Source: Bacteroidales bacterium | GTDB lineage: Bacteria > Bacteroidota > Bacteroidia > Bacteroidales > 4484-276 | DNA: 32,095 nucleotides | Assembly (NCBI GenBank): GCA_012523265.1 | Contig: JAAYIU010000137.1 | Location: forward strand, 1 to 32,095 | Reading direction: 5' to 3' | Shown here: positions 5,346 to 27,690 of the stretch, one piece after another | Layout of the letters: each line of letters starts with the position of its first letter | How positions within the stretch are numbered: the first letter of the stretch is position 1 | The notes under the pieces: generated by a model | What the model saw: the letters and a program-made list of their open reading frames with translations, nothing else | The model's database searches: none | Told to the model about the DNA's origin: nothing | Program-made: the position numbers and the translations under genes

Positions 5346-5401
5346 ATATTTTGCAATGATTAATTTTTATTGTAATTGTGGAATAGTGCAGCAGAAGCTA
5401 C

Positions 5402-6373
5402 CTACAAATCAATGATTGTTTCAGCCGCTAATCCTGTCTCTTTAATAATATCTTCGATGTCTGCTCCACTCTGCTTCATGTACGTTGCCAGCTTTAATGC
5501 CAGAGATTCTTTCTGCCTGCGCTCTGTTTCTTTCTGTCTGCGCTCTGTTTCTTTCTGCTTCCGTTCCAGTTTTTCACTCTTCCTTGCTTTCTTTTCTCTT
5601 GCTTCTGCCTCTGCAATCTTTTTCAGATATTTTGCTTCCTGCGCATCAAAAATGGTATCGATCTCTTCTTCAGCTTCCAGCGTGCGGCGAAATGTTTCAT
5701 CCATCAGCGGACGTTGCAGGTATTCAGCCATGTCGGCAAATCCTTCAGGAATTTCCTGTAGGTCGATGATGTAATTTTCCTCGGTACACCAGGCCTGATT
5801 GAACAACATCAGAAAATTTTCCAGGCGCGTCCGTCGTCGTTCGGGCAAACGCCGTACTTGTATAATGTGCGACTGGTGCGTAAGGTGATCGATGAAAAAA
5901 CTCCTGACTTCAATTTTTTCCTTGCTCACCGAATCGATTATCTCCCGATTTACAGTTACAGCCATGTAGGGTAAATCGTCGAGATTATAACCCAAAATGT
6001 AAATGGTAATGATGGGATAGCCCGACGAATACTCGGGCGGGGGCTCTTCAACACTGCTCAGGTCTTTTTGCCTGGCCATGTAATTGGCGCCAAGATAATT
6101 CCGAAAGCGTTGAATGTCGGTAGCATATTTTGATTTTTGTAGTTCGATGAGCACCGTTTTTCGGCTCCCATCGGCTTCTTTTATAACCGCTTTAAAGTCG
6201 AGCCGAAACAAGGTAAGGCTTCGTTTCACATCCGGGAAAGTAGTTTCCTGCTGGCCCAACGAAACCTCTTCCACCTCCACATCCATTATTACCGACAATA
6301 CTTTGCGGGCATATTTGGTGTTTTCCATCAGGTACTTAAAAGCTTTGTCGTAGAGAGGGTTTATGATTTTCAT
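5402..6373 (-). CDS. Rpn family recombination-promoting nuclease/putative transposase (PD-(D/E)XK, PDDEXK_2-like)
   Basis: MKIINPLYDKAFKYLMENTKYARKVLSVIMDVEVEEVSLGQQE... LTLFRLDFKAVIKEADGSRKTVLIELQKSK (D...E-x-Q/K nuclease-like core), charged C-terminal repeat region RRQKETERRQKE. Confidence 0.85.
   Translation of the reverse strand: MKIINPLYDKAFKYLMENTKYARKVLSVIMDVEVEEVSLGQQETTFPDVKRSLTLFRLDFKAVIKEADGSRKTVLIELQKSKYATDIQRFRNYLGANYMARQKDLSSVEEPPPEYSSGYPIITIYILGYNLDDLPYMAVTVNREIIDSVSKEKIEVRSFFIDHLTHQSHIIQVRRLPERRRTRLENFLMLFNQAWCTEENYIIDLQEIPEGFADMAEYLQRPLMDETFRRTLEAEEEIDTIFDAQEAKYLKKIAEAEAREKKARKSEKLERKQKETERRQKETERRQKESLALKLATYMKQSGADIEDIIKETGLAAETIIDL
5513..5555. repeat. 21-bp in-frame tandem repeat in the Rpn-family gene (RRQKETE x2)
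   Basis: ctgcctgcgctctgtttcttt / ctgtctgcgctctgtttcttt, then ctgcttccg; translates to KETERRQKETERRQKE. Confidence 0.8.
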
Positions 6374-6471
6374 GTCCGGTTTTTTTTAATGATTGCAAAT
6401 CTAATGTCTTAACAAAAATACACCAAATCAGTTTGCTTGCCCAGGGCAAATGACAAATTTCGGATAAAAGC

Positions 6472-6723
6472 GGCTCTGATATAAAATTTTGTGGCCATCT
6501 AATCACTAACCCCGGCCTTTAGGCCGGGGATAATAGTCAAAAACACTTCAGTGGGCTTTAGCCCAAATAAATAGAAATGTTATGATGAGTTCATGGAAAG
6601 ATATTGATGTAAAAATTTTGCGGGCTAAAGCCCGCAGGTTTCTGACCGGGCTATCTGACCCCGGACATCCGGGGTTATTGACATGTTGCAGATGAGCTAC
6701 AAACAATAAGTAATATCAGAGCT
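6472..6723 (+). mobile_element. Fold-back, palindrome-rich MITE-like element, copy 1
   Basis: Termini GGCTCTGATA (6472-6481) and TATCAGAGCT (6714-6723), 9-bp inverted match; exact 8-bp direct repeat ATAAAAGC at 6464-6471 and 6724-6731; internal palindromes at 6510-6529, 6552-6565, 6620-6635 and 6659-6674. Confidence 0.75.
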
Positions 6724-6764
6724 ATAAAAGCTAATATCCAAATTCAAAACAGCAATCAACACAT

Positions 6765-6800
6765 AAAAAAAAGCTGCCCGGTAGATGAGCAGCTTTTTTT
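6765..6800 (-). terminator. Intrinsic terminator downstream of the SusE-like gene
   Basis: aaaaaaaagctgcccggtagatgagcagcttttttt: AAAGCTGC/GCAGCTTT stem with A/T tracts on both sides. Confidence 0.75.
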
Positions 6801-6826
6801 TATTAAGAAATAAATTTTCCTCGATA

Positions 6827-7978
6827 CTACTGCGGATTCACAGTATAGGTCATTGTAATGGTATTCATCTTAATAAGATACTGGCCGGTGGCCGATGGCG
6901 GCGGAATGGACTTCGGATCGGGATCGCCTTCGGTTTCGCGATATACCAGTTCACCACTTTCAAAGTCGGCACCTTCCACGGTGCCGTACATTGGCGCCCA
7001 GGCTCCCTGATTCACCAGGAATTTGAAACCTTCGGTAGCATCTGCACTAAGATTGGTGACAAGCTCAAACACACCGGGAGAAACCTTTACCATAGGAATG
7101 GCAGCAGCAGCATCCCAACCTGCATCGGTAGCATCACCTACAATGTGCATCGATGGTGCAACGTTGGCAGGCACGATAGTATATTGCTTATTGACCAGGT
7201 CGAATGTCACCAGATAATCACCAGCTTCTGCCGGAGTAGGAATAGCTACCGGGTCGGGATCGGGATCGGTAGGACGATAAACCAGCGGGCCACTTTCGGA
7301 AGTGCCACTGTCATCAGTGCCCCATTGTGGCCACCACTGTCCGGGAACTTCGATAGCCTTTATAAGAAGGTTGGCGCCGAGTGTTGCCACGATCTTGTAA
7401 ACTTTAGCCTGGTCATCATAAGTAAATGGCAGATCGGTAGCAGCATTATCCCAACCAACAGAAGTGCCATCGCCAATAAGATACAAAGGCGGAGCCTCTA
7501 CTACGGTAGAGTAAGCAGTGACGTTGAGTGGGAATGTAGCGGAAACAGTACTGGTGTATTTGCTTTGGTTATTAATAATCGAAGAAACTCTTACAGAAAC
7601 ACCTACTACTGAATCCGGAGTGACTCCGAGGTTAAGCATGGTGCTGTTGAGCTTGCTTTGTTTGATCGAAAGCATCGTGGTGGTGGTGGTTCCCAAGTCG
7701 ATGACGTTCATAAAGTTGCTTTCAGCTAAGTCGATTTGCACAGTATATTTGGTGTTTTCCAAATCGGAGAGATTATAACTTGCCGGTGTCCATTTAAAAA
7801 TGATCATGCTGTCGGCCTGGTCTTTCATCAGGACAATAGTACTGTTAGCTTCTGGCATTGTCAGCGCCGGAGCGGTGGCTTTACCCATATCCAGAACCGG
7901 CTCGCTATCCTGTTTTTCGCAGGAGAAGAGCAGTCCGATACCTACGATTGCAAAAAGAATGAATGTTATCTTTTTCAT
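6827..7978 (-). CDS. SusE/SusF-like outer membrane glycan-binding lipoprotein
   Basis: Start revised to MKKITFILFAIVGIGLLFSCEKQ (7978), a lipoprotein signal with LFSC lipobox; SusE-like N-terminal domain and tandem modules (YLIGDGTSVGWDNAATDLPFTYD..., MHIVGDATDAGWDAAAAIPM...). The track start at 8182 overlaps SusD. Confidence 0.85.
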   Translation of the reverse strand: MKKITFILFAIVGIGLLFSCEKQDSEPVLDMGKATAPALTMPEANSTIVLMKDQADSMIIFKWTPASYNLSDLENTKYTVQIDLAESNFMNVIDLGTTTTTMLSIKQSKLNSTMLNLGVTPDSVVGVSVRVSSIINNQSKYTSTVSATFPLNVTAYSTVVEAPPLYLIGDGTSVGWDNAATDLPFTYDDQAKVYKIVATLGANLLIKAIEVPGQWWPQWGTDDSGTSESGPLVYRPTDPDPDPVAIPTPAEAGDYLVTFDLVNKQYTIVPANVAPSMHIVGDATDAGWDAAAAIPMVKVSPGVFELVTNLSADATEGFKFLVNQGAWAPMYGTVEGADFESGELVYRETEGDPDPKSIPPPSATGQYLIKMNTITMTYTVNPQ

Positions 7979-7998
7979 ATTTTTAATTGATTTAGAAA

Positions 7999-9582
7999 TT
8001 AATAACCTGTGTTTTGTTGAAGATTCGGATTGGCGTTGACGTCGGCAGTGGGCAACGGGAAAATCCGGTACTTGCCGGCGGTAGCCACACCCTGTGGTGC
8101 ACCACCTTTCCAGGGCCAAACATATTCGGCGCTGGTGAGCTTGTTGTGACGCACCAGGTCGGTACGGCGGTGGCACTCCCAATACAGTTCGCGACCGCGC
8201 TCATCGAGGATGAAATCCAGAGTGAGATCGCCGGCGCTGATGTTGCCCGAAGTGCCGTTGTAGGCTCTTTCTCTCACCTTATTTACGTAAGTAACAGCCA
8301 TGCCCATATCAGCAGCGCCACGAACGGCAGCCTCGGCATACATCAGATAGACGTCGGCCAGACGGAACAACGGGAAATCAGTATCGGGGTAGTCGATGTC
8401 TTTGCCGGCACTGCCGGTGGAAGTTACGTTTTTGAATTTGGTAATGGCATAGCCATCCGTAAATTCGCCAATGTTGATGATCTCCAGGTTTTGGCCATCG
8501 GTATGAAACATAGCCCGGCGGTCGGTATTTCCTGAGGCATCAGAGAATTTATTGACGAACGCGCTGGTAGTACGGATACCGCCCCATCCGCCGCCAACAC
8601 CAAAGTCGCTTGGATTCATCGAGCCGCCAACAGCAGCATGGATGATGAAGTTGGTGCCGCCATAGGTGCGGGTGTTGATGCCATCAAAGGCAATCGAGAA
8701 TATCTGCTCCGGGTTGTTTTGGTCGTTGTCGGCCAGAAAAAGATTTGCATACACAGGCGCAAGCTGATAGCCTGCGTCGATAACTTTCTGAGCGTAAGTA
8801 GCACATTCGCCGTAGCGGGCCATACCGGTATAAACTTCAGCATTCAGATAGTTCTTGGCAAGCAGCGTCCAGGCAGCAGCTTTGTCGGCACGGGCATACA
8901 CAGTGTGCGGCTCGAGGAGCTGACCTTCGATCTCTTTCAGCTCCGACTCCACATAGTTGAAAAGTTCGGCGCGCTGGATCTGCGGCGGGAAGAATAATCC
9001 TACCACGTCGTCTTCGGTAACGAAGGGAACGTTGGCAAACAAATCCATTGCATGCGAATAACTAAGTGCTCGCAGGAAACGTGCCTCAGCATGGTAAGTC
9101 TGTACCTGTGCTTTCAGATCGCCGGTAACGCCGCGTCCGTCGAGCTTGGCGTCGGTAGTTTCGCGGATGTATTCGTTACAAACTGCTATTTGATAAAAAA
9201 TACGGTAATACATGGCGGCGATAAATACGTCGCCGGCACCCCACGACTGCCCGTGGAAATCTTTGATGGTTTGGTCGTTCCAGCCAATCACAGCTTCGTC
9301 GGTAGGGAGTTCCTGATGATACCAATAGCCACGCAGGTATTGTCCGAAGCCTTCGTCGATGCCACTGATGTCGCCTTGTCCGGCGGGGCCTTCCTGGCCG
9401 CTCACTGCCAGGCCGGCATAGAGCTTGGCAAGTACCTGGAGGTAGGCTTCAGGGTTTTCGAAGACTGTGGCGGCGGTGGTAACCTTTTTATCCAAAGGCA
9501 CAGTATCGAGGTCTTTGGTGCAGGAGCTAAATGCGATGGTCAGCCCTGCTACAATCAAAAATATATTTGCGAATTTTTTCAT
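7999..9582 (-). CDS. RagB/SusD family nutrient uptake outer membrane lipoprotein
   Basis: MKKFANIFLIVAGLTIAFSSCTKDLDTVPLDKK... lipobox; C-terminal LDFILDERGRELYWECHRRTDLVRHNKL... typical of SusD. Confidence 0.95.
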   Translation of the reverse strand: MKKFANIFLIVAGLTIAFSSCTKDLDTVPLDKKVTTAATVFENPEAYLQVLAKLYAGLAVSGQEGPAGQGDISGIDEGFGQYLRGYWYHQELPTDEAVIGWNDQTIKDFHGQSWGAGDVFIAAMYYRIFYQIAVCNEYIRETTDAKLDGRGVTGDLKAQVQTYHAEARFLRALSYSHAMDLFANVPFVTEDDVVGLFFPPQIQRAELFNYVESELKEIEGQLLEPHTVYARADKAAAWTLLAKNYLNAEVYTGMARYGECATYAQKVIDAGYQLAPVYANLFLADNDQNNPEQIFSIAFDGINTRTYGGTNFIIHAAVGGSMNPSDFGVGGGWGGIRTTSAFVNKFSDASGNTDRRAMFHTDGQNLEIINIGEFTDGYAITKFKNVTSTGSAGKDIDYPDTDFPLFRLADVYLMYAEAAVRGAADMGMAVTYVNKVRERAYNGTSGNISAGDLTLDFILDERGRELYWECHRRTDLVRHNKLTSAEYVWPWKGGAPQGVATAGKYRIFPLPTADVNANPNLQQNTGY

Positions 9583-9601
9583 AATTACTAAAATTTAAAA
9601 A

Positions 9602-12600
9602 TTAGAACTGAAGAGTTAAGCCAAGCAAGTAGGTCCGGGGACGCGGATACAACCGATTGTCGATACCACCAGAAATCTCCGGGTCGATGCCGTCGTACTG
9701 GGTGATGGTAAACACGTTGGTAACGGTTGCGGTAAGACGCAGGCTGGCGAATTTTTTGATAGCATCCGGGAAGAAATAGCTCAACGACATATTGTCCATC
9801 CTAAAGAACGAGGCATCCTGGATGTAATAATCGGAAAGAAACTGTGGATTTACAAAGTTGGTTTCATACACCTTATCGGTGATGTTGCCCAGGTAGGGAC
9901 CTTCGGGGCGGTAGAGCCGCTCATAAACAGCATTTTCGCTGTTCACGTTGTCGTACACATAGTTACCAAAGTTGGCGCGTCCCGAGAATGCGAAGTCCCA
10001 GTTTTTGTAGGATACTGATGAGTTGATCCCGAAATAGAAATTGGCTGCCGGGTCTTTGTAGTAATAGCGGTCGGCATCGGTAATTTCGCCATCGCCATTT
10101 CTGTCGACATAAATACCTTGCAGCGGCTTGCCGTCGGTACCATAAACCTGTTCAAAAACAAAGTAGGTGTTGGCCGACTGACCTACAGCATGTTTCTGGA
10201 TGAAGTTACCCACACCGCCGGAGATACCACCTACATCTATTCCGGTGTAACTCGGGTCGTCGGTGGCAGTAAGTTTTGTGATCTCGTTTTGGTTGTAGGT
10301 GGCATTAAAGCCAAGTTCCCAGAATATCTTGTCGGTAGAAACTGGACGGGTAACAATGGTAAATTCAAAACCTTCGTTTTTAAGATCCCCTACATTGGTG
10401 AGGATATAATTGCTAAGGTTGGTACCAGCCGGTACGGCGATAAAGTTGATCAGGTCAGAAGTTTTGCGGTTGTAATAATCCAACGATCCATAAATCCGGT
10501 CGTTGGCAAAGCCAAAGTCGAAGCCGAAGTTAAGGGTAGTGGTCTCTTCCCATTTGATATTGTAGTCGTATCCTTCAGGACGCAGAGTGTAATAAAACTG
10601 GTTGCCAATCTGATACTGCGCAAACTGGTCGCTGAGTGTATAACGAGGCAAATACGGATAGTCATTATCGGTAATGTTTTGCTGACCGGTTACACCGTAG
10701 CCTGCTCTGAATTTCAGTTGCGACATATTAACGCCGGCCATAAAAGGCTCTTCGATGATCTGCCACGCAAAAGCTGCCGATGGGAACAAGCCCCAGCGGG
10801 TGTCGGGAGAGAAGCGCGAGCTGCCGTCATTACGAAGGGTGAAGGTAAGCAGATACCGCTCTTTAAAGGTGTAGTTGAAACGTCCGAAGAAAGATAACAG
10901 ATAACTTTCGGTAGGATTATCATCCGATTTGATGTTGTAGGTACGCATGTAGTCGCCATAGAAATTTTTCTGGTAGTTGCCCGGACGGATAGAGTCAAGT
11001 GTAAACTGACGGGAATAGTTACTGTTTAATGAGGAGTTGCTGCGATAGAAATGTTGCCACGAATAACCAGCCATCACATCAAAACGGCTTTCGATGCTTT
11101 TGACGGCTTTTACATAATTCAGGTAAAACTCCAGCAGTTCGTTTTTCTTTTCCTGATCGTAAGCACTCCAGTTGCCGCCACCATTCAGCGCGTCGTACGA
11201 CCAGGGAGCATAGTCGGGGGTAATGTTGTCGCCTTCAGCTTTCGAGTAGTCGTAGCCCAGGTTCAGGTTGGCACGCAACTCAGGGAGGAAGTGCATTTTA
11301 TAATCCATTTGGATGTTTCCGATGAAGCGGTTGACGGTCGACTGGTCGTCGCGCATGTTGAGCAGCGCCACCGGATTGCTCGATCCCTGTTCTACCGGGA
11401 TGTCGGTTCCGCCGGGCTGTACCCATGCATAGTAGCCGCCAAAGTCGGTTATTGGCATCCGCACCGTGTCGGGAGATCCATCGCCATTCACATCATTAAG
11501 ATAATAGGGATTGTAAAGGGTTCCGTCTTCTATGGGTTTGCTTGGGTCGTATTGCAACGCAGCGCCGATAGCATCGCGGTTACCAAATTGATTCTTGATG
11601 TTCATGTACTTGGCATTAACATCAATCTTCAGATGTCCGTCGAACAAAGTAGGATTCAGCGCAACGCTGGCGGTAGTACGTTTCAGATTGTCGGTTTTCA
11701 GGATACCATCCTGATCGGTGTAACCTATCGAGAGGCGATAGGGTAAAACCTTGTAGGCGCCCGAGATGCTCAGGTTGTGATCCATGCTAAAAGCATTCTG
11801 ATAGATCTCTTTTTGCCAGTCGGTGTTGGCTGTGCCAAGCAATCCTGCCTGGTTGGGATATCTATCCTGCACTTCTTTTCTGAACACATCAGCATCCAGT
11901 ACATCAATGGTTTTGATGGGTGTCGAAATTCCGAAATTACCACTATAAGTTACCGACAAGGGTTTTCCTTCTTTGCCTTTTTTGGTGGTAATAATGATAA
12001 CCCCGTTGGAGGCGCGCGAGCCGTAGATGGCAGTAGCCGAAGCATCTTTTAGCACCGTGAAGGTTTCGATGTCGTTGGGGTTGATGGTGTTCAGCGGGTT
12101 GCGCATCCCGGAGATGCCGTCGTTATCCACCGGCACACCGTCGATAACAAACAACGGGTCGTTGCTGGCTCTTAGCGACGAGCCGCCTCTGATGCGTATG
12201 GTAGCACCCTCGCCGGGGGCGCCGCCGCCACTGGTAATCTGTACACCGGCAATTTTACCCGAAACCAGTTCGGTGGGTGTGGTGAGTGTGCCGCGGTTAA
12301 AGTCTTTGCTGCCCACCGCGGTAACTGAGCCCGTAGCGTCATCGCGTTTTTGCACGCCGTAGCCGATTACTACCAGTTCTTCAAGATAGGTGTTTTGTTG
12401 CAGCAGCGCTACATTCACAGTAGTGTTTGGCTGTACCAATACTTCCTGCGATTCGTAGCCGATAAAAGAAAATACCAGTGTGGCATTTGGTGAAATAGTA
12501 ATGCTGTAGTTACCGTCGATGTCGGTAACGGTACCCTCCAGCGTTCCTTTCACCTGCACTGCAGCTCCGGGGAGGGTGCCGCCTTCTTTGGCATCGGTTA

Positions 12601-14622: not shown

Positions 14623-14644
14623 TTTTTTCCCCCGCCATTTCAAT

Positions 14645-14905
14645 CCCAGGCATAAATGCCTGGGCTACGGACATGAATGCCTGGGCTACGGATTCCCCAG
14701 ATAACCCCAGGCGCAAATGCCAGAGCGATGGAATTCCCCGATAATCCCAGGCATGAATGCCTGGGCTACGGATATTCCCGATAATCCCCGACATAAATGC
14801 CTGGGCGATGGAGTTCCCCGATAATTCCAGGCGCAAATGCCAGAGCGATGGAATTCCCCGATAATCCCAGGCATGAATGCCTGGGCTACGAAGTTCCCCG
14901 ATAAT
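14645..14905. repeat. About 40-bp tandem repeat array carrying CCCAGGCATNAATGCCTGGG palindromes
   Basis: TTCCC(C)GATAATCCCAGGCATGAATGCCTGGGCTACGGA-type units begin near 14693, 14734, 14774, 14814, 14854 and 14894. Confidence 0.85.
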
Positions 14906-14995
14906 CTTTGCGCCCGGCGCTCTGCGTTCTGCACCCTGCTCCTTGCTCCTTGCGCCCCGCGCCTTGCTCCTTGCGCCCTGCGCCCCGCGCCTTTT
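14906..14995. repeat. Low-complexity pyrimidine-biased GCGCC/CTTGC repeat tract
   Basis: ctttgcgcccggcgctctgcgttctgcaccctgctccttgctccttgcgccccgcgccttgctccttgcgccctgcgccccgcgcc. Confidence 0.7.
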
Positions 14996-17411
14996 ATTTC
15001 ACCACCGCCTTTTCTACACCAAAACCATTTTCCGTTTTTAAATGCAAAAGATAAACTCCTGATGGGATTCCTCTGACGTCGATCTGAAGAGATTGTTTTC
15101 CTTGCGAAAGTTTACCGGCTGTATTTGGTACCAGAACCTGCTGGCCGGTCAGGCTGTGCATTTCAACGATGACCTGTTGCGGTTTATCCAGCATAAAACC
15201 TATTGTCAGGTAATCCGTTGCGGGAACGGGAGAAACGGAAAGCGCTATTGTGCCTGCACCTGGTTCGAGAATGGATTGTGGGTCATACACAAAACCGATG
15301 GCATCGAGAGCGGGTTGCATTTCGGGGTTGGCCATAAAATTATTCCACAGCAGTTGAGACCGATGATTTTCGATCATAATAATAATAGGCCCCTGGTCGA
15401 TGGCCAGGTAAGAGGTGGCGTACCAATCGGCTTCGGGGTTGAAGGCGTCGGCAAAGCCCATGTTGCCCCAGATTTTGCCGCCCAGTGTGCGATAAAAATG
15501 TTTGAGTGCCGCCATAGATTCGTCGGGCGTGTAGGGCATCGACGACAAAGCTGCGCTAGGGGTAATGGTTCCGTTGTCGCGCGTGCCAACCGGCTCGTGT
15601 ACCATGTAGCCCCACGGATCGTCGCTGGCGGTAAGTCCCCACGAAACAGCCGAATAGCCTTCAAAGTTTTTTGGGTTGGCAATGCAGTAGGCGCGGTTGA
15701 TCAGGGTGTGGTTGCGGTTGTTGAGGACATAATTGGCGTAAGCATCTTTTTTGTTGCGCGGATCGAAGCCCAGATAGGAATAGTGAGCAAAAAAAAGCGG
15801 ACCGCCGTAATCCCATCCCACCCATAATTTATATCCATAAAACGAATCTCCATTAACATAATTTGTCGACGACGCCCAGCCGTCGTGCCACAGCGAGGCC
15901 GGTACGCCATGTGTTGGCGAGGCGATGGCCAGCAGATACACGATGGCAGCTTCGTTGGGGCCGCGAACCTGCATGTTGATTGCCCACTGGTGGTTGGGCG
16001 ACCAGTGCCAGTAAAGGAAATTCCCGTCGTTGCGGCGGTACCAGTCCCATTCTACGGTTTCCCAAAGCTGCGTAATGCGCTCGGCAATGGATTGCTCGTC
16101 AGCATTTGTCTGGTTAAAGTACTGCCGTGCTGCCAGCAGTCCCTGCACCAGAAAAGCCGTCTCCACCAGGTCGCCGCCATTATCAAGCTCGCTGAAAGGA
16201 ATCACCTTGCCCGTGTTGCCATCGAGCCAATGCGGCCATACGCCATGAAAGCGATCGGCGTTTTCGAGGAAGGTGAGTATTTTCTTCATGCGCGCAATGC
16301 CCTGATGGCGGGTGATAAACTGGCGTTCTATCCCCACCAGCAGCGCCATGATGCCAAAGCCGCTGCCACCACTGGTCACTATATTACCTGATGTATTGCG
16401 TTCACGCGCCATACCTGAGGCCGGGTGGGCAAAATCCCAGAAGTAACGGAACGTTGCCTCCTGCACCATTTCCATAAGTTGCTCATCATCCATATCGTAG
16501 GTACCCGTTTGCACCATTTCCGAAAAAGGAGAGGATTCGTTGGCGTCGTTCAATGCGGTAATTTTGTATTGTAGCCCCAGGTTGGTGCCCAAAGCTCTGA
16601 CGAAATCAGTATAGGATGTGTCGGTTTTCTCAACGTTGGCTCGCTTATCGAAGGTGGTGCCATTGTCGGTGGAAAGATATATTTCGTAGCCGTTCAGGTT
16701 GCTTTCGGTGTTGGGTTGCCAGGTAAGATACGCGTGGCTGTCGTAGCCTTTGGCAGCCAGTCCCTGTGGAGCTGCCACAGGTGGCGAAGTTCCGTCGCCT
16801 TTGAAGATGCGCATATCATCCACAAACAAAGTGTGGCTTTGGCCGTCGGCGGATAGTTGCGCAAAGCCAATGGTTTTGATCGCTTCGAAATTTACACCCG
16901 ATGAAGCATGAAACGGCGCCATCGGAATGGTGATCCTTTTCCATTCGTTAGCAGGCATGGCAGCAGCGTATTCGCTGATGGCAATTTTTACTGTTTGTTG
17001 ATTGTTGGCATCTTCCATAAAAATTGCCGGCAGGTTTTCAATATCGAAAACTACCGGGCTACGCAGAAAGAAGAGCAACGTGTCGGCATCAGCCACATTG
17101 TTGGCCGTCCAGTTGAGTCCGGCAGCGATGGCCTGCCAGTTGCCGCCGGCATTGGAACTCCACGTAAGACGCAGCGAATTGACACCCTGCTGCGCCGGCA
17201 CATCATTTTCCACCGGGAAACGATGCTCGTCGGCACCGGCAACTTCCAACATGCTGGGCGCATTTACCCAAAGCCAGCTAAAGTCATAAAACGCCTCATC
17301 AGGGCTGTCCTGAAAATAAAACCAAGTCTGAGCTTCTACTTTGCCCAGACCTGTGGTTATGATCATTATTAAAAGAAATACAATTTTATTTTTTAAAATT
17401 AAAATGTTCAT
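14994..17411 (-). CDS. Glycoamylase-like (PF10091; GH144-type) secreted protein with FN3-like region and T9SS sorting domain
   Basis: Signal peptide; FN3-like segment (PQGLAAKGYDSHAYLTWQPNTESNLNGYEIYLS); glycoamylase core (DDEQLMEMVQEATFRYFWDFAHPASGMARERNTSGNIVTSGGSGFGIMALLVGIERQFITRHQGIARM..., YPFTPDESMAALKHFYR-like region, DQGPIIIMIENHRSQLLW); C-terminal T9SS-type domain. Confidence 0.88.
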   Translation of the reverse strand: MNILILKNKIVFLLIMIITTGLGKVEAQTWFYFQDSPDEAFYDFSWLWVNAPSMLEVAGADEHRFPVENDVPAQQGVNSLRLTWSSNAGGNWQAIAAGLNWTANNVADADTLLFFLRSPVVFDIENLPAIFMEDANNQQTVKIAISEYAAAMPANEWKRITIPMAPFHASSGVNFEAIKTIGFAQLSADGQSHTLFVDDMRIFKGDGTSPPVAAPQGLAAKGYDSHAYLTWQPNTESNLNGYEIYLSTDNGTTFDKRANVEKTDTSYTDFVRALGTNLGLQYKITALNDANESSPFSEMVQTGTYDMDDEQLMEMVQEATFRYFWDFAHPASGMARERNTSGNIVTSGGSGFGIMALLVGIERQFITRHQGIARMKKILTFLENADRFHGVWPHWLDGNTGKVIPFSELDNGGDLVETAFLVQGLLAARQYFNQTNADEQSIAERITQLWETVEWDWYRRNDGNFLYWHWSPNHQWAINMQVRGPNEAAIVYLLAIASPTHGVPASLWHDGWASSTNYVNGDSFYGYKLWVGWDYGGPLFFAHYSYLGFDPRNKKDAYANYVLNNRNHTLINRAYCIANPKNFEGYSAVSWGLTASDDPWGYMVHEPVGTRDNGTITPSAALSSMPYTPDESMAALKHFYRTLGGKIWGNMGFADAFNPEADWYATSYLAIDQGPIIIMIENHRSQLLWNNFMANPEMQPALDAIGFVYDPQSILEPGAGTIALSVSPVPATDYLTIGFMLDKPQQVIVEMHSLTGQQVLVPNTAGKLSQGKQSLQIDVRGIPSGVYLLHLKTENGFGVEKAVVK

Positions 17412-17424
17412 GATTAGTGATTTT

Positions 17425-17668
17425 GGTTTTGATATTATTTATTGAGCGTGGCTCATCTGCAGCACTTCAATAACCCTGCCCTTCAGGGCGGGGTCAGATG
17501 GCCATGTAAGGAACCGGCGGGCTTTAGCCCGCATACTAATACATCAGCATCTTTACCTGCACTCAGCCTACATTCTATTTATTTGGGCTAAAGCCCATTG
17601 AAATATTTTTGTCTTTTACCCCGGCCTAAAGGCCGGGGATAGTGATCAGCCTGGCTACAATCAGAGCC
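17425..17668 (-). mobile_element. Fold-back, palindrome-rich MITE-like element, copy 2 (inverted relative to copy 1)
   Basis: Termini GGTTTTGATA (17425-17434) and AATCAGAGCC (17659-17668); candidate target duplication GTGATTTT (17417-17424) / ATGATTTT (17669-17676), 7/8 identical; palindromes including 17516-17532, 17584-17597 and 17619-17638 in the reverse order of copy 1. Confidence 0.7.
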
Positions 17669-17681
17669 ATGATTTTTAAGA

Positions 17682-19910
17682 TCACGGTGAATAGCTGAAG
17701 CGCACAGATTGAGTTGTGCCTGAATCCGTTCCTACAAAAACCTCAAACTCGCCTGGCTCAGCAGCCCATTGCATGTCGCGGGTGAGGAACCTTAGTGTTG
17801 CAGGAGTTATCCCGAAAGTAACAACAGATTGCGCGCCGGGTTCAAGATAAATTTTGCGGAAATCTTTCAGCTCTTTTACCGGCCGGGTAACGCTGCCCAC
17901 CAAATCGCGCACGTAAAGCTGCACCACCTCGTGGCCTGCCATTTTTCCGGTATTTGTCACCTCTACTGATACTTCAATCTTTTGGTTGTTTGTGAGCGTC
18001 GGCGATGAAATTTTCAGATTATCGTATTGAAATGTGGTGTAGCTAAGGCCGTAGCCAAAAGGATAGAGCGGTGTATTGGCAACATCGAGATATTTGCTGG
18101 TGTATTTATCAGCCGACATGGGACGACCGGTATTTTTATTATTATAAAAAATGGGCACCTGCCCCAGGTTGCGCGGGAAACTCACCGTGAGTTTTCCCGA
18201 AGGGTTGTAGTCGCCAAAGAGCACATCGGCCACAGCATGTCCGGCTTGTGTGCCGGGGAACCAGGCTTCGAGAATTGCAGGCGCATGGGCATCGAGCCAC
18301 GAGAGGTCGAGCGGGCGGCCATTCATCAGCACCACCACCACTGGTTTTCCTGTTGCGATAAGCGCTTCGGCCAACTGCTGCTGCACACCGGGCACAGTGA
18401 TTTCTGAGCGACTGGCAGCTTCGCCCGACATCTCTTTTGTTTCGCCTATTACCAAAACCACAGCGTCGGAGCGTCTGGCCAATGTAACTGCTTCGTCAAA
18501 TCCTGAGCGGTCGTCGCCATCAACTTCACAGCCGCGCGCAAAAACCACGCGTTGTGTCGGCAGTTTTGCTTTGATACCTTCCAGCACCGTCACACTCTTG
18601 TTAAAATCGCCAGCCGCCGACCAGGCGCCAATCATATCTTTTTTGCTGTCGGCCAATGGCCCGATCACTGCAATGGTGCTTGTTTGTTTGGATAAAGGCA
18701 ATGTCTGGTTTTGATTTTTGAGCAGTATCATGCTTTCGGCAGCAAACGCACGGGCAAACGCCAGATGCTCAGGATGGTAAATCAGCGTATCCTGTCGTTG
18801 CTTGTCGCAATATTTGTAAGGATCGTCAAACAATCCCAGCATCATCTTAATGCGCAAAATGCGCCTGACGGCATCATCGATATCCGAAATTTTTACTTTT
18901 CCTTCTTTGACCGATTGTGCCAGGTAGTCGTTGAAAATGCCGCTTTGCATGTCCATATCCACCCCGGCATTTACAGCCAGTTCGCCGGCCTCTTTGTTGT
19001 CGGCCACGATTCCGTGGGGAACCATCTCGGCTATAGAAGTGTAATCGGTTACAACGAAGCCATCAAAATCCCACTCCTTTTTCAGGATTTCGCGCAACAG
19101 ATATTCGTTGCCGGTGGCAGGAATTCCGTCCACTTCGTTGAAGCTGGTCATAAAAGTACCCACGCCTGCATCCACGCACGCCTTGAAGGGCGGCAGGTAG
19201 GTTTCGCGCAATACCCTGTCCGACACATCCACCGTGTTGTAGTCGCGGCCGGCGAGGGCAGCTCCATAAGCGGCATAATGTTTTGCGCAAGCTACCATTG
19301 TGTTATCAGCGGCGAGGTTATCACCCTGAAAGCCTTTGACCCGAGCCACTGCAATGCGGCTGGTGAGGTAGGTATCTTCGCCGGCACCTTCCATGATGCG
19401 TCCCCAGCGTGGGTCGCGCGCAACGTCCACCATTGGCGTGAATGTCCAGTTGAGGCCTTCGGCAGTGGCTTCGGTGGCCGCGATGCGCTCGGAATGTTCG
19501 ATGGCTTCCATATTCCAGGTGGCGGCTTGCGCCAATGGCATGGGAAAAATGGTGCGGTGGCCATGGATCACGTCGTAGCCAAACATCAGCGGTATTTTCA
19601 ACCGCGTATTCTCTACAGCAATGCTCTGTAGTTCTCTGACGTAGTCCACGCTGTATGCATTAAAGATAGCGCCTACCTTTCCGGCTTCGATATCTTTGCG
19701 ATAGCCGCTGCGCATGGTGGGGCCGGTTACGTCCCAATCGCTGGTGTAGAGCGTCATTTGCCCAATTTTTTCTTCCAGCGTCATTTGCTGCAACAGTGCG
19801 TCTATCTTGCTTTCGATTGCCGTATTGTCATCATTGATCTTTTGCGCAGCCACCTGATGAAAAGAACTCATGGATAAGGCCAGGAGAATTAATAAAATCT
19901 TCTTATTCAT
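17682..19910 (-). CDS. bglX: Glycoside hydrolase family 3 beta-glucosidase (BglX-like)
   Basis: MNKKILLILLALSMSSFHQVAAQ signal peptide; LLQQMTLEEKIGQMTLYTSDWDVTGPTMR; nucleophile region FDGFVVTDYTSI; GH3 C-terminal and fibronectin III-like domains (GHEVVQLYVRDLVGSVTRPVKELKDFRKIYL). Start revised from 19943 to 19910. Confidence 0.95.
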   Translation of the reverse strand: MNKKILLILLALSMSSFHQVAAQKINDDNTAIESKIDALLQQMTLEEKIGQMTLYTSDWDVTGPTMRSGYRKDIEAGKVGAIFNAYSVDYVRELQSIAVENTRLKIPLMFGYDVIHGHRTIFPMPLAQAATWNMEAIEHSERIAATEATAEGLNWTFTPMVDVARDPRWGRIMEGAGEDTYLTSRIAVARVKGFQGDNLAADNTMVACAKHYAAYGAALAGRDYNTVDVSDRVLRETYLPPFKACVDAGVGTFMTSFNEVDGIPATGNEYLLREILKKEWDFDGFVVTDYTSIAEMVPHGIVADNKEAGELAVNAGVDMDMQSGIFNDYLAQSVKEGKVKISDIDDAVRRILRIKMMLGLFDDPYKYCDKQRQDTLIYHPEHLAFARAFAAESMILLKNQNQTLPLSKQTSTIAVIGPLADSKKDMIGAWSAAGDFNKSVTVLEGIKAKLPTQRVVFARGCEVDGDDRSGFDEAVTLARRSDAVVLVIGETKEMSGEAASRSEITVPGVQQQLAEALIATGKPVVVVLMNGRPLDLSWLDAHAPAILEAWFPGTQAGHAVADVLFGDYNPSGKLTVSFPRNLGQVPIFYNNKNTGRPMSADKYTSKYLDVANTPLYPFGYGLSYTTFQYDNLKISSPTLTNNQKIEVSVEVTNTGKMAGHEVVQLYVRDLVGSVTRPVKELKDFRKIYLEPGAQSVVTFGITPATLRFLTRDMQWAAEPGEFEVFVGTDSGTTQSVRFSYSP

Positions 19911-20099
19911 GGTTAAAATATTTTTAGTGAAGCTGGCGTCCATTTTGGGCGCCAGCAGTTATTTATTTTCAGAATGAAAGCCCGGAATTTTGATTTTCAA
20001 CAATCTAATATCTCCTAAATGGAAAAAGCTGATGAAAATCCGAACTCCGGACGTTGTTCATTACAATTTTCAAAATTGTTTATTTCCTTTAGGTACTTA

Positions 20100-21614
20100 T
20101 CAATATCCTGGATTCTGGGTAAGTTTACCGCCGCTGGCGTAAATTTCGCTTTGCGGGATTGGGAAGAGTTCATTTTTACCATCCACGAAATTTTTACCAT
20201 GCGCACGGAGCACCTGGCCGGCTCTGCCCTGCCGCACCAAATCGTAGAAACGGTCGTATTCCATGGCCAGTTCAAAGCGGCGTTCGCGCCAGATAGCCTG
20301 CCGCAGTTCTTCGTGTCCGGCGGCTTGTGTATCGCCCAGTCCGGCACGATTGCGCACTGCGTTGAGCGAGGCAAGGGCTTTGGCTGTGTTGCCAAGTGCA
20401 TTGGCGGCTTCGGCATTGATGAGATAAATCTCACCCATACGAAGAAGGCGTACATTCTTATTGGTGCGGTCGTCGTTGCCGGTCCAGCTTTCTTCATATT
20501 TGCTTACGTAGGCTTTGTAATTATAGCGGGGGTTGGCAGCGGTATCGATGATGACGTTGTCGAATAGTGTATCGCCAATCGACATGATGGTAGCTTTGCG
20601 GCGCAGGTCGCCGGGCTCGTAGCTGTTGAAAAGGTCGAGTGATGGCGTATTAAAACCCCATCCCGTAAAGGCGGAGGTGTCGCGGCCATTATTACCGACA
20701 AATGAAAATTTTCCGCCACGGATGCCTTGCGGTGAACAATATTGCTGCACGGCAGCTATGGGAATTCCGGCGCGCGCCTGAATTTCGAAAAGCGACTCTA
20801 TGCTGTTTTCGCCCACTTCGCGCCAGATGGTGGCATAGTCGGGCACCAGGCCATAGTTGCCCACTTCGCCATTGATGATTTGGTTGGTGAGATCGAAAGC
20901 CTGCTGCCATTTCTTTTGGTACATGCTCACTTTTGCCAGCAGTGCGATAGCAGCTCCTTTGGTGGCACGTCCCAGCTCCGGTGCCGGGTAACTCACCGGA
21001 AGCACGGCAATGGCCTCGTTGAGGTTTTGTTCGATAAAGGCATATACCTCTTCTACAGGTACGCGTGTGTTGGCTTTATTGATGTCGGCAGGATTGTCAG
21101 CGTCGATTACCTGATCCAGCACAGGCACTGCGCCATAGGTGCGCACCAGGTTGAAATAATAATAAGCGCGCAGAAATTTGGCTTCAGCCATCAGGCGGTT
21201 TTTCAAATCTTGCGGGATATCGAATTTGGGAACATTGGCCAGCGCCTGGTTGCAATTGCTGACGCCCTGGAAATTGCCTTTCCACACTTCCGTTACCGAG
21301 ATGGTGGTAGGTGTGTAGGTGATGGCGTCCATTTGGTCTTTGTCGGCGCCCAGGTCGCCGGGATCGCTGCCTTTGTCGGCGTCGTCGGAGGTGATGCTGG
21401 CCACGCCCATCCACGAAAAAGCGCTTTGCTCCCAGGTGAGGAGGTTGGCGTAGCAGGCATTAACAAAACGTGTGGCATTGGCCGGATCGGCAAAAGTAGA
21501 ATCGGAAGTCACAAGCTGATTTTCCGGTGCGGGGTCGAGCCAATCTTTGTCGCAGGCACCCATCACTAAAGCGGTTGCCACAAGGACGATGATGAAACGA
21601 ATATATTTTTTCAT
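20100..21614 (-). CDS. RagB/SusD family nutrient uptake outer membrane lipoprotein (second copy)
   Basis: MKKYIRFIIVLVATALVMGACDKDWLDPAPENQLVTSDSTFADPANATRFVNACYANLL... SusD fold motifs; AIWRERRFELAMEYDRFYDLVRQGRA near the C-terminus. Confidence 0.95.
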   Translation of the reverse strand: MKKYIRFIIVLVATALVMGACDKDWLDPAPENQLVTSDSTFADPANATRFVNACYANLLTWEQSAFSWMGVASITSDDADKGSDPGDLGADKDQMDAITYTPTTISVTEVWKGNFQGVSNCNQALANVPKFDIPQDLKNRLMAEAKFLRAYYYFNLVRTYGAVPVLDQVIDADNPADINKANTRVPVEEVYAFIEQNLNEAIAVLPVSYPAPELGRATKGAAIALLAKVSMYQKKWQQAFDLTNQIINGEVGNYGLVPDYATIWREVGENSIESLFEIQARAGIPIAAVQQYCSPQGIRGGKFSFVGNNGRDTSAFTGWGFNTPSLDLFNSYEPGDLRRKATIMSIGDTLFDNVIIDTAANPRYNYKAYVSKYEESWTGNDDRTNKNVRLLRMGEIYLINAEAANALGNTAKALASLNAVRNRAGLGDTQAAGHEELRQAIWRERRFELAMEYDRFYDLVRQGRAGQVLRAHGKNFVDGKNELFPIPQSEIYASGGKLTQNPGY

Positions 21615-24628: not shown

Positions 24629-24743
24629 GGCTATGATATTATTTATTAATTGGGCTAAAGCCCACTGAAATATTTTTGCCCAACCCCCGGCCTGAAGGCC
24701 GGGGTTAGTGAAATTATGGCCACACGATTTTTGTGTCATATCC
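24629..24743 (-). mobile_element. Short internally deleted copy (copy 3) of the fold-back MITE-like element
   Basis: Termini GGCTATGATA (24629-24638) and TGTCATATCC (24734-24743); retains TGGGCTAAAGCCCA and CCCCGGCCTGAAGGCCGGGG palindromes; AATAAATAATATCA end (minus strand) matches copy 2. Confidence 0.6.
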
Positions 24744-27400: not shown

Positions 27401-27555
27401 GGTTCTGATATAAAATTTTGTTGCCGGTTGGCACTACCGCCGGCCTTTAGGCTCTACAGCGTGCAAACAAATAAAATGGTACAAGGATTACTAACCCCGG
27501 CCTTTAGGCCGGGGATAAAAATGTAAAAAAGTTTCAGTGGGCTTTAGCCCAAACA
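27401..27555 (+). mobile_element. Degenerate or truncated copy (copy 4) of the fold-back MITE-like element
   Basis: GGTTCTGATATAAAATTTTGT matches the copy 1 left end (GGCTCTGATATAAAATTTTGT); CTAACCCCGGCCTTTAGGCCGGGGATAA palindrome (27495-27514) and gtttcaGTGGGCTTTAGCCCA follow; no recognisable right end. Confidence 0.6.
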
Positions 27556-27690
27556 TTTTTTTTTGAAAGGTGACGAGGTGGTTATTAAGGATTGAAAAAC
27601 AATACAACCATCTTAATAATTATAAAAAAAACGCAGTTTATCCATCAACAAAAAGAGACTATTTTTGAAAGCTATTAAAGTATTCATACC

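Follow-up and report, generated by a model that had tools for sequence, protein, structure and literature searches.

A probable orphan MITE family with well-preserved internal hairpins in a Bacteroidales genome

Bacterial MITEs, including RUP, NEMIS, ERIC, Nezha, Chunjie and others, have been reviewed (PMC10969869). Like these, the element described here is short and non-coding, has inverted ends and target duplications, and lies between genes in tens of copies that include truncated variants (PMC10969869); unlike them, it has ends of its own, an 8-bp duplication, no parent IS that we could find, and four hairpins within a quasi-palindrome that spans its whole length. Larger elements that enclose palindromic repeats have also been described: QMITE2 of Coxiella carries a GTAG REP (PMC10969869), and in Anabaena variabilis GTAG-15 dimers lie inside long palindromes (PMC3733652). 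Similar to both, the present element nests a palindromic repeat in a larger inverted-repeat structure, whereas its hairpins lack GTAG, are arranged as two inverted doublets and come in designs that seem to be exchanged. Within the same order, BrickBuilt of Porphyromonas gingivalis contains a 23-nt tandem repeat and makes duplications without constant length (PMC4596501). The two are alike in being intergenic Bacteroidales MITEs with another repeat trapped inside (PMC4596501), but their ends differ, and neither the tandem-repeat payload nor the variable duplication length of BrickBuilt is shared. Finally, the short GC-rich palindromes, their pairing in doublets and the intergenic location recall REP/BIME/REPIN-RAYT systems, from whose REPs the element differs by its terminal inverted repeats (TIRs), its target duplication and the lack of a GTAG guide (PMC6006769, PMC3733652).

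The element represents a new family of the known composite-MITE kind, one whose ends and duplication length are particular to it and whose hairpins are unusually conserved and exchangeable. A search of the open-licence literature gave no prior description of the family. For a poorly studied lineage of Bacteroidota it contributes a clean MITE family backed by empty-site proof, and it is notable mainly for its unusually well-preserved hairpins and for the failure to find an enzyme that mobilises it.

Anatomy and copies of the element

The window, i.e., the whole stretch of 32,095 nucleotides that was analysed, is contig C210 of a 3.98-Mb genome assembly (476 contigs, 93% complete), and the SusC/SusD/SusE-type genes in it suggest a member of the Bacteroidota. 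Copy 1 of the element occupies window positions 6472-6723 (252 bp) between exact 8-bp duplications (Table 1). Its termini, GGCTCTGATA...TATCAGAGCT, form 22-bp inverted repeats with a mismatch at the outermost base pair, and the ends of the family as a whole are of the GGCTCTGATATNANNTNTTGTG type. The four palindromes CCCCGGCCTTTAGGCCGGGG, TGGGCTTTAGCCCA, GCGGGCTAAAGCCCGC and CCCCGGACATCCGGGG are all found in copy 1, and the hairpin doublets H1-H2 and H3-H4 stand in inverted orientation between the ends. An earlier note on this DNA, made from the sequence alone, had described a non-coding fold-back element with an 8-bp duplication, inverted termini and a quasi-symmetric interior; these three features were recovered exactly where it had placed them, and no ORF of at least 80 aa lies inside copy 1 in the ORF listing of the window. 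The term fold-back is apt, as the family profile matches its own reverse complement over its full length (for locus L010 with an E-value of 2e-14), which makes the element a quasi-palindrome. Folded as RNA, copy 1 reaches -100.9 kcal/mol (z = -7.9 against shuffled sequence), and its DNA fold has a z of -6.4 against shuffled sequence.

Table 1. Features of copy 1 and the other copies of the element in the window
Feature	Position	Strand	Remark
Target duplication, left copy ATAAAAGC	6464..6471	.	
Left terminal inverted repeat GGCTCTGATATAAAATTTTGTG	6472..6493	+	exact member of 22-bp end consensus
Hairpin H1 CCCCGGCCTTTAGGCCGGGG, 9-bp stem	6510..6529	.	stem 93% conserved, 23 copies
Hairpin H2 TGGGCTTTAGCCCA, 6-bp stem	6552..6565	.	
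Hairpin H3 TGCGGGCTAAAGCCCGCA	6619..6636	.	
Hairpin H4 ACCCCGGACATCCGGGGT; CCCCGCCCTNAAGGGCRGGG-type palindromes instead in other copies	6658..6675	.	
Right terminal inverted repeat, AGCTCTGATATTACTTATTGTT on - strand	6702..6723	-	3 mismatches to consensus
Target duplication, right copy ATAAAAGC	6724..6731	.	
Copy 2, full-length; flanks GTGATTTT / ATGATTTT	17425..17668	-	
Copy 3, shortened to 113 bp by internal deletion; consists of right end, H2-H1 and left end	24629..24741	-	
Copy 4, degenerate: left end 27401-27452, then stand-alone H1-H2 doublet 27486-27556	27401..27556	+	

Copy 2 is bordered on one side by the start of a glucoamylase-domain gene (14994-17411) and on the other by the end of a GH3 gene (17682-19943). 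In the genome as a whole, a BLAST search with a 268-bp query gave 44 matches in the same genome (best non-self E-value 5e-104), about 20 of them near full length and 75-93% identical to copy 1. The copies thus differ from copy 1 by 7-25%, so that no very recent transposition is seen. In a genome scan, the 22-bp end GGCTCTGATATWAWWTWTTGTG occurred 55 times at up to three mismatches, against none for a reversed control, and about 20 elements have both ends; recurrence on this scale goes far beyond chance. According to a scan for facing ends in the loci examined, these paired-end elements measure 241-258 bp, with shorter forms of 103, 126, 143 and 175 bp, and target duplications accompany the short forms as well as the long. 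Internal deletion with both ends left in place accounts for at least two of the shorter forms: L073 joins profile positions 1-98 to 207-252, and the 175-bp form at L081 joins 1-98 to 183-251. The majority of 21 paired elements lie outside ORFs of at least 100 aa, and the apparent exceptions mostly involve short or overlapping mechanical ORFs. The copy at L013 was considered as a gene disruption, a reading rejected because the insertion falls where two genes meet. Unpaired ends could have delimited a long autonomous element, but those inspected lead to truncated copies and host genes, with no transposase. Plasmids and phages gave no match to the element.

At L082 (2052-2216), the H1-H2 doublet of a partial copy is tandemly duplicated. 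The truncated copies at L080 and L085 share a left flank, and one of the two adjoins an apparent 5S rRNA gene; the shared flank is probably a duplicated end of an rRNA operon.

Target duplications and empty sites

Across 19 paired elements, the two flanking 8-mers agree at a mean of 6.7 of 8 positions, compared with 3.1 +/- 0.3 when partners are shuffled. The match is complete in seven elements and 7/8 in seven more, where 0.16 elements with at least 7/8 would be expected; copy 2 is undercounted in this set, its end having been set one base short (the correct end is 17668). The agreement is specific to length: flank identity is 84% at 8 bp and 35-50% at 5, 6, 7, 9 and 10 bp, with 39% for shuffled partners. 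In 16 of the 19 elements a T stands directly after the duplication, and an A usually stands before it, which indicates an A/T-rich, roughly symmetric target.

Unoccupied sites were found in G003, a genome of the same genus that shares synteny, at about 83%, with the right-hand portion of the window. At the site of copy 2, G003 reads TTCATGATAAATGATTTTAAAAT, with a single ATGATTTT and no element. Similarly, the L081 site carries one ATCATTTT in G003, where the present genome has ATCATTTT-element-ATCATTTC. The L009 site is also unoccupied in G003, with a diverged flank, and copy 3, which has no clear duplication, is absent there too. Around copy 1, window positions 5352-12348 could not be matched at the DNA level to the stretches of G003 examined. 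Over query positions of about 917-1003, the left flank of L009 itself matches another dispersed intergenic repeat, which occurs in about 20 or more places in G003. Separately, the GH3 and SusD-like genes are spaced by 194 bp in the window (19910-20104) and by 17 bp in G003, and neither ends nor a duplication were recognised in this interval.

The common ends, the peak of flank identity at 8 bp and the empty sister sites together show that this is a real, mobile MITE family. The expectations of the earlier note were borne out in this respect: searching the genome with copy 1 returned dispersed copies with common ends and 8-bp duplications; empty sites with a single target are present in G003 for copy 2 and L081; and the proposal of a non-autonomous MITE agrees with the common ends, duplications and empty sites seen at other copies, including copy 2. 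Inverted ends and a duplication of constant length imply DDE-type cutting and joining, as is established in transposition biology. We therefore regard copy 1, with high confidence, as a member of an orphan MITE family, i.e., a short, non-coding, TIR-bounded element that prefers A/T-rich intergenic sites and is mobilised in trans by a DDE-type transposase with an 8-bp stagger. From the inverted ends and the fixed-length duplication we infer both the class of this enzyme, which would cut the two target strands 8 bp apart, and its action in trans.

Hairpins inside and outside the element

Between copies, identity averages 92.6% for the stems of H1-H3 and 74.8% for the other internal positions (23 copies; column permutation p about 5e-5, with columns treated as independent). 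The few compensatory changes in H1 are explained by stems that hardly vary. At H4 the copies carry CCCCGGACATCCGGGG, CCCCGCCCTNAAGGGCRGGG or, in one case, an H1-like palindrome, and since H4 is replaced as a whole palindrome, column-wise covariation is not meaningful there. L019 carries CCCCGGATGTCCGGGG at H1, and the hairpin loops alternate between TTTA and TAAA from copy to copy. Palindromes thus seem to be exchanged between copies as units.

Because the stems have changed less than the remaining sequence, hairpin structure probably matters for the spread or tolerance of the element, be it as single-stranded DNA while the element is replicated or transposed, or as RNA when transcripts read through it. 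The same preserved stems, together with the stable folding and the intergenic location, would suit a host regulatory structure, terminator-like or an RNA element, conserved at each site and not mobile. However, two sites are precisely empty in the sister genome, the copies have common ends and site-specific duplications, and no Rfam family matches the element above curated thresholds. We consider such a structure extremely improbable, the empty sites ruling it out as the sole explanation; a secondary, domesticated host role is possible. For a mobile MITE, stem conservation makes the role of hairpins testable, since copies whose stems are broken or intact can be compared at known sites for which the sister species offers empty alleles.

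The H1-H2 doublet also occurs without ends, both in this genome and in relatives. Stand-alone doublets or TIR-less cores were found in G003, G004 and G007, whereas the full-length MITE was found once in G003 (81%) and was absent from G001 and G002; the full MITE therefore appears limited to this genus. In the genome under study, many partial copies end just 3' of H2, the 3' foot of which (profile positions about 98-106) is a frequent breakpoint. Together with the doublets and TIR-less cores in relatives, these frequent stops indicate that the hairpin module is broader in distribution than the MITE, and probably older. In the MITE reading, the payload consists of two REP-like hairpin doublets in inverted arrangement (H1-H2 ... 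H3-H4). The related doublets that lack ends point to capture, by the MITE, of a hairpin repeat already present in the bacterial family; TIR-less copies could also be decayed full elements. A further elaboration would make the element a composite parasite, in which the doublet spreads alone by a single-strand mechanism, with its breakpoint at the H2 foot, and also travels as inverted pairs in a TIR element that a DDE transposase from an undescribed family mobilises, with hairpins swapped between copies and structure selected. We hold this fuller scheme to be quite improbable.

Candidate mobilising enzymes

The family is widely spread, and its genome shows no transposase that is recognisable as a partner. 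Models for ISL3 (PF01610), IS1595, IS256, DDE_Tnp_1 and IS1 gave no match in this 93%-complete, 476-contig assembly; IS256 was included because its ends also run ...AAAATTTTGTG. The earlier note had tentatively linked the element to ISL3, a link left unsupported by the missing ISL3-type transposase. As a special case of the MITE reading, a non-autonomous ISL3 derivative would agree with the 8-bp duplication, the A/T-rich targets and the GGCTCT with which the ends begin. Nevertheless, 8-bp duplications are common to ISL3 and several other IS families, and the resemblance of the ends is not known to extend beyond these first few bases. Besides the lack of an ISL3 transposase in the genome, an exact-pattern scan for the TIR across 85,462 GTDB species genomes returned three matches, about the number expected by chance, none of which was seen bordering a transposon, and the corresponding scan of viral contigs returned none. 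An ISL3 origin is thus unlikely.

The element could alternatively be a REP/BIME cluster that owes its spread to a RAYT (TnpA-REP, a HuH single-strand transposase) acting on the hairpins, the ends being incidental. In line with this possibility, the hairpins have short loops, form doublets and occur as stand-alone modules in relatives, and the many partial copies that terminate just 3' of H2 would fit as well. Moreover, the genome has three Y1_Tnp (RAYT-type) genes, one of which (L091 1026-1698, contig C465) is flanked on both sides by GTAG-tagged GTAGCCCAGGCCTTCAGGCCTGGG palindromes, several of them in tandem upstream, which are apparently its cognate REPs. However, these GTAG REPs differ in sequence from the hairpins of the element. 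A GTAG or GTGG guide 5' of the hairpin foot, as expected for REPs served by a RAYT, is not a feature of the element, whose hairpins almost never carry GTAG: among the loci examined, almost all sites with GTAG next to a hairpin belong to other palindromes, an H3-type hairpin being involved in only two. No RAYT gene linked to the element's hairpins was found in this genome. Both 8-bp duplications and 22-bp inverted ends are present, and we know of no RAYT/IS200-type movement that makes 8-bp target duplications or needs such ends. Given these duplications and hairpins without GTAG, a RAYT is not a likely mover of the full element, and we judge that reading very improbable. The comparison with REP/BIME repeats drawn in the earlier note therefore holds in part: the hairpins resemble REPs and are also seen on their own, but they lack the GTAG tag, and no RAYT gene of this genome was found linked to them. 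Of the enzymes that it had proposed looking for, Y1_Tnp genes exist, and a transposase with matching ends was not found.

The window also contains a REP array of its own. At 14640-14910, GTAG-tagged REPs of the GTAGCCCAGGCATTCATGCCTGGG type are arranged in tandem, the units measuring about 40 and 120 bp, and their tag is the same as that of the REPs around the RAYT gene on C465.
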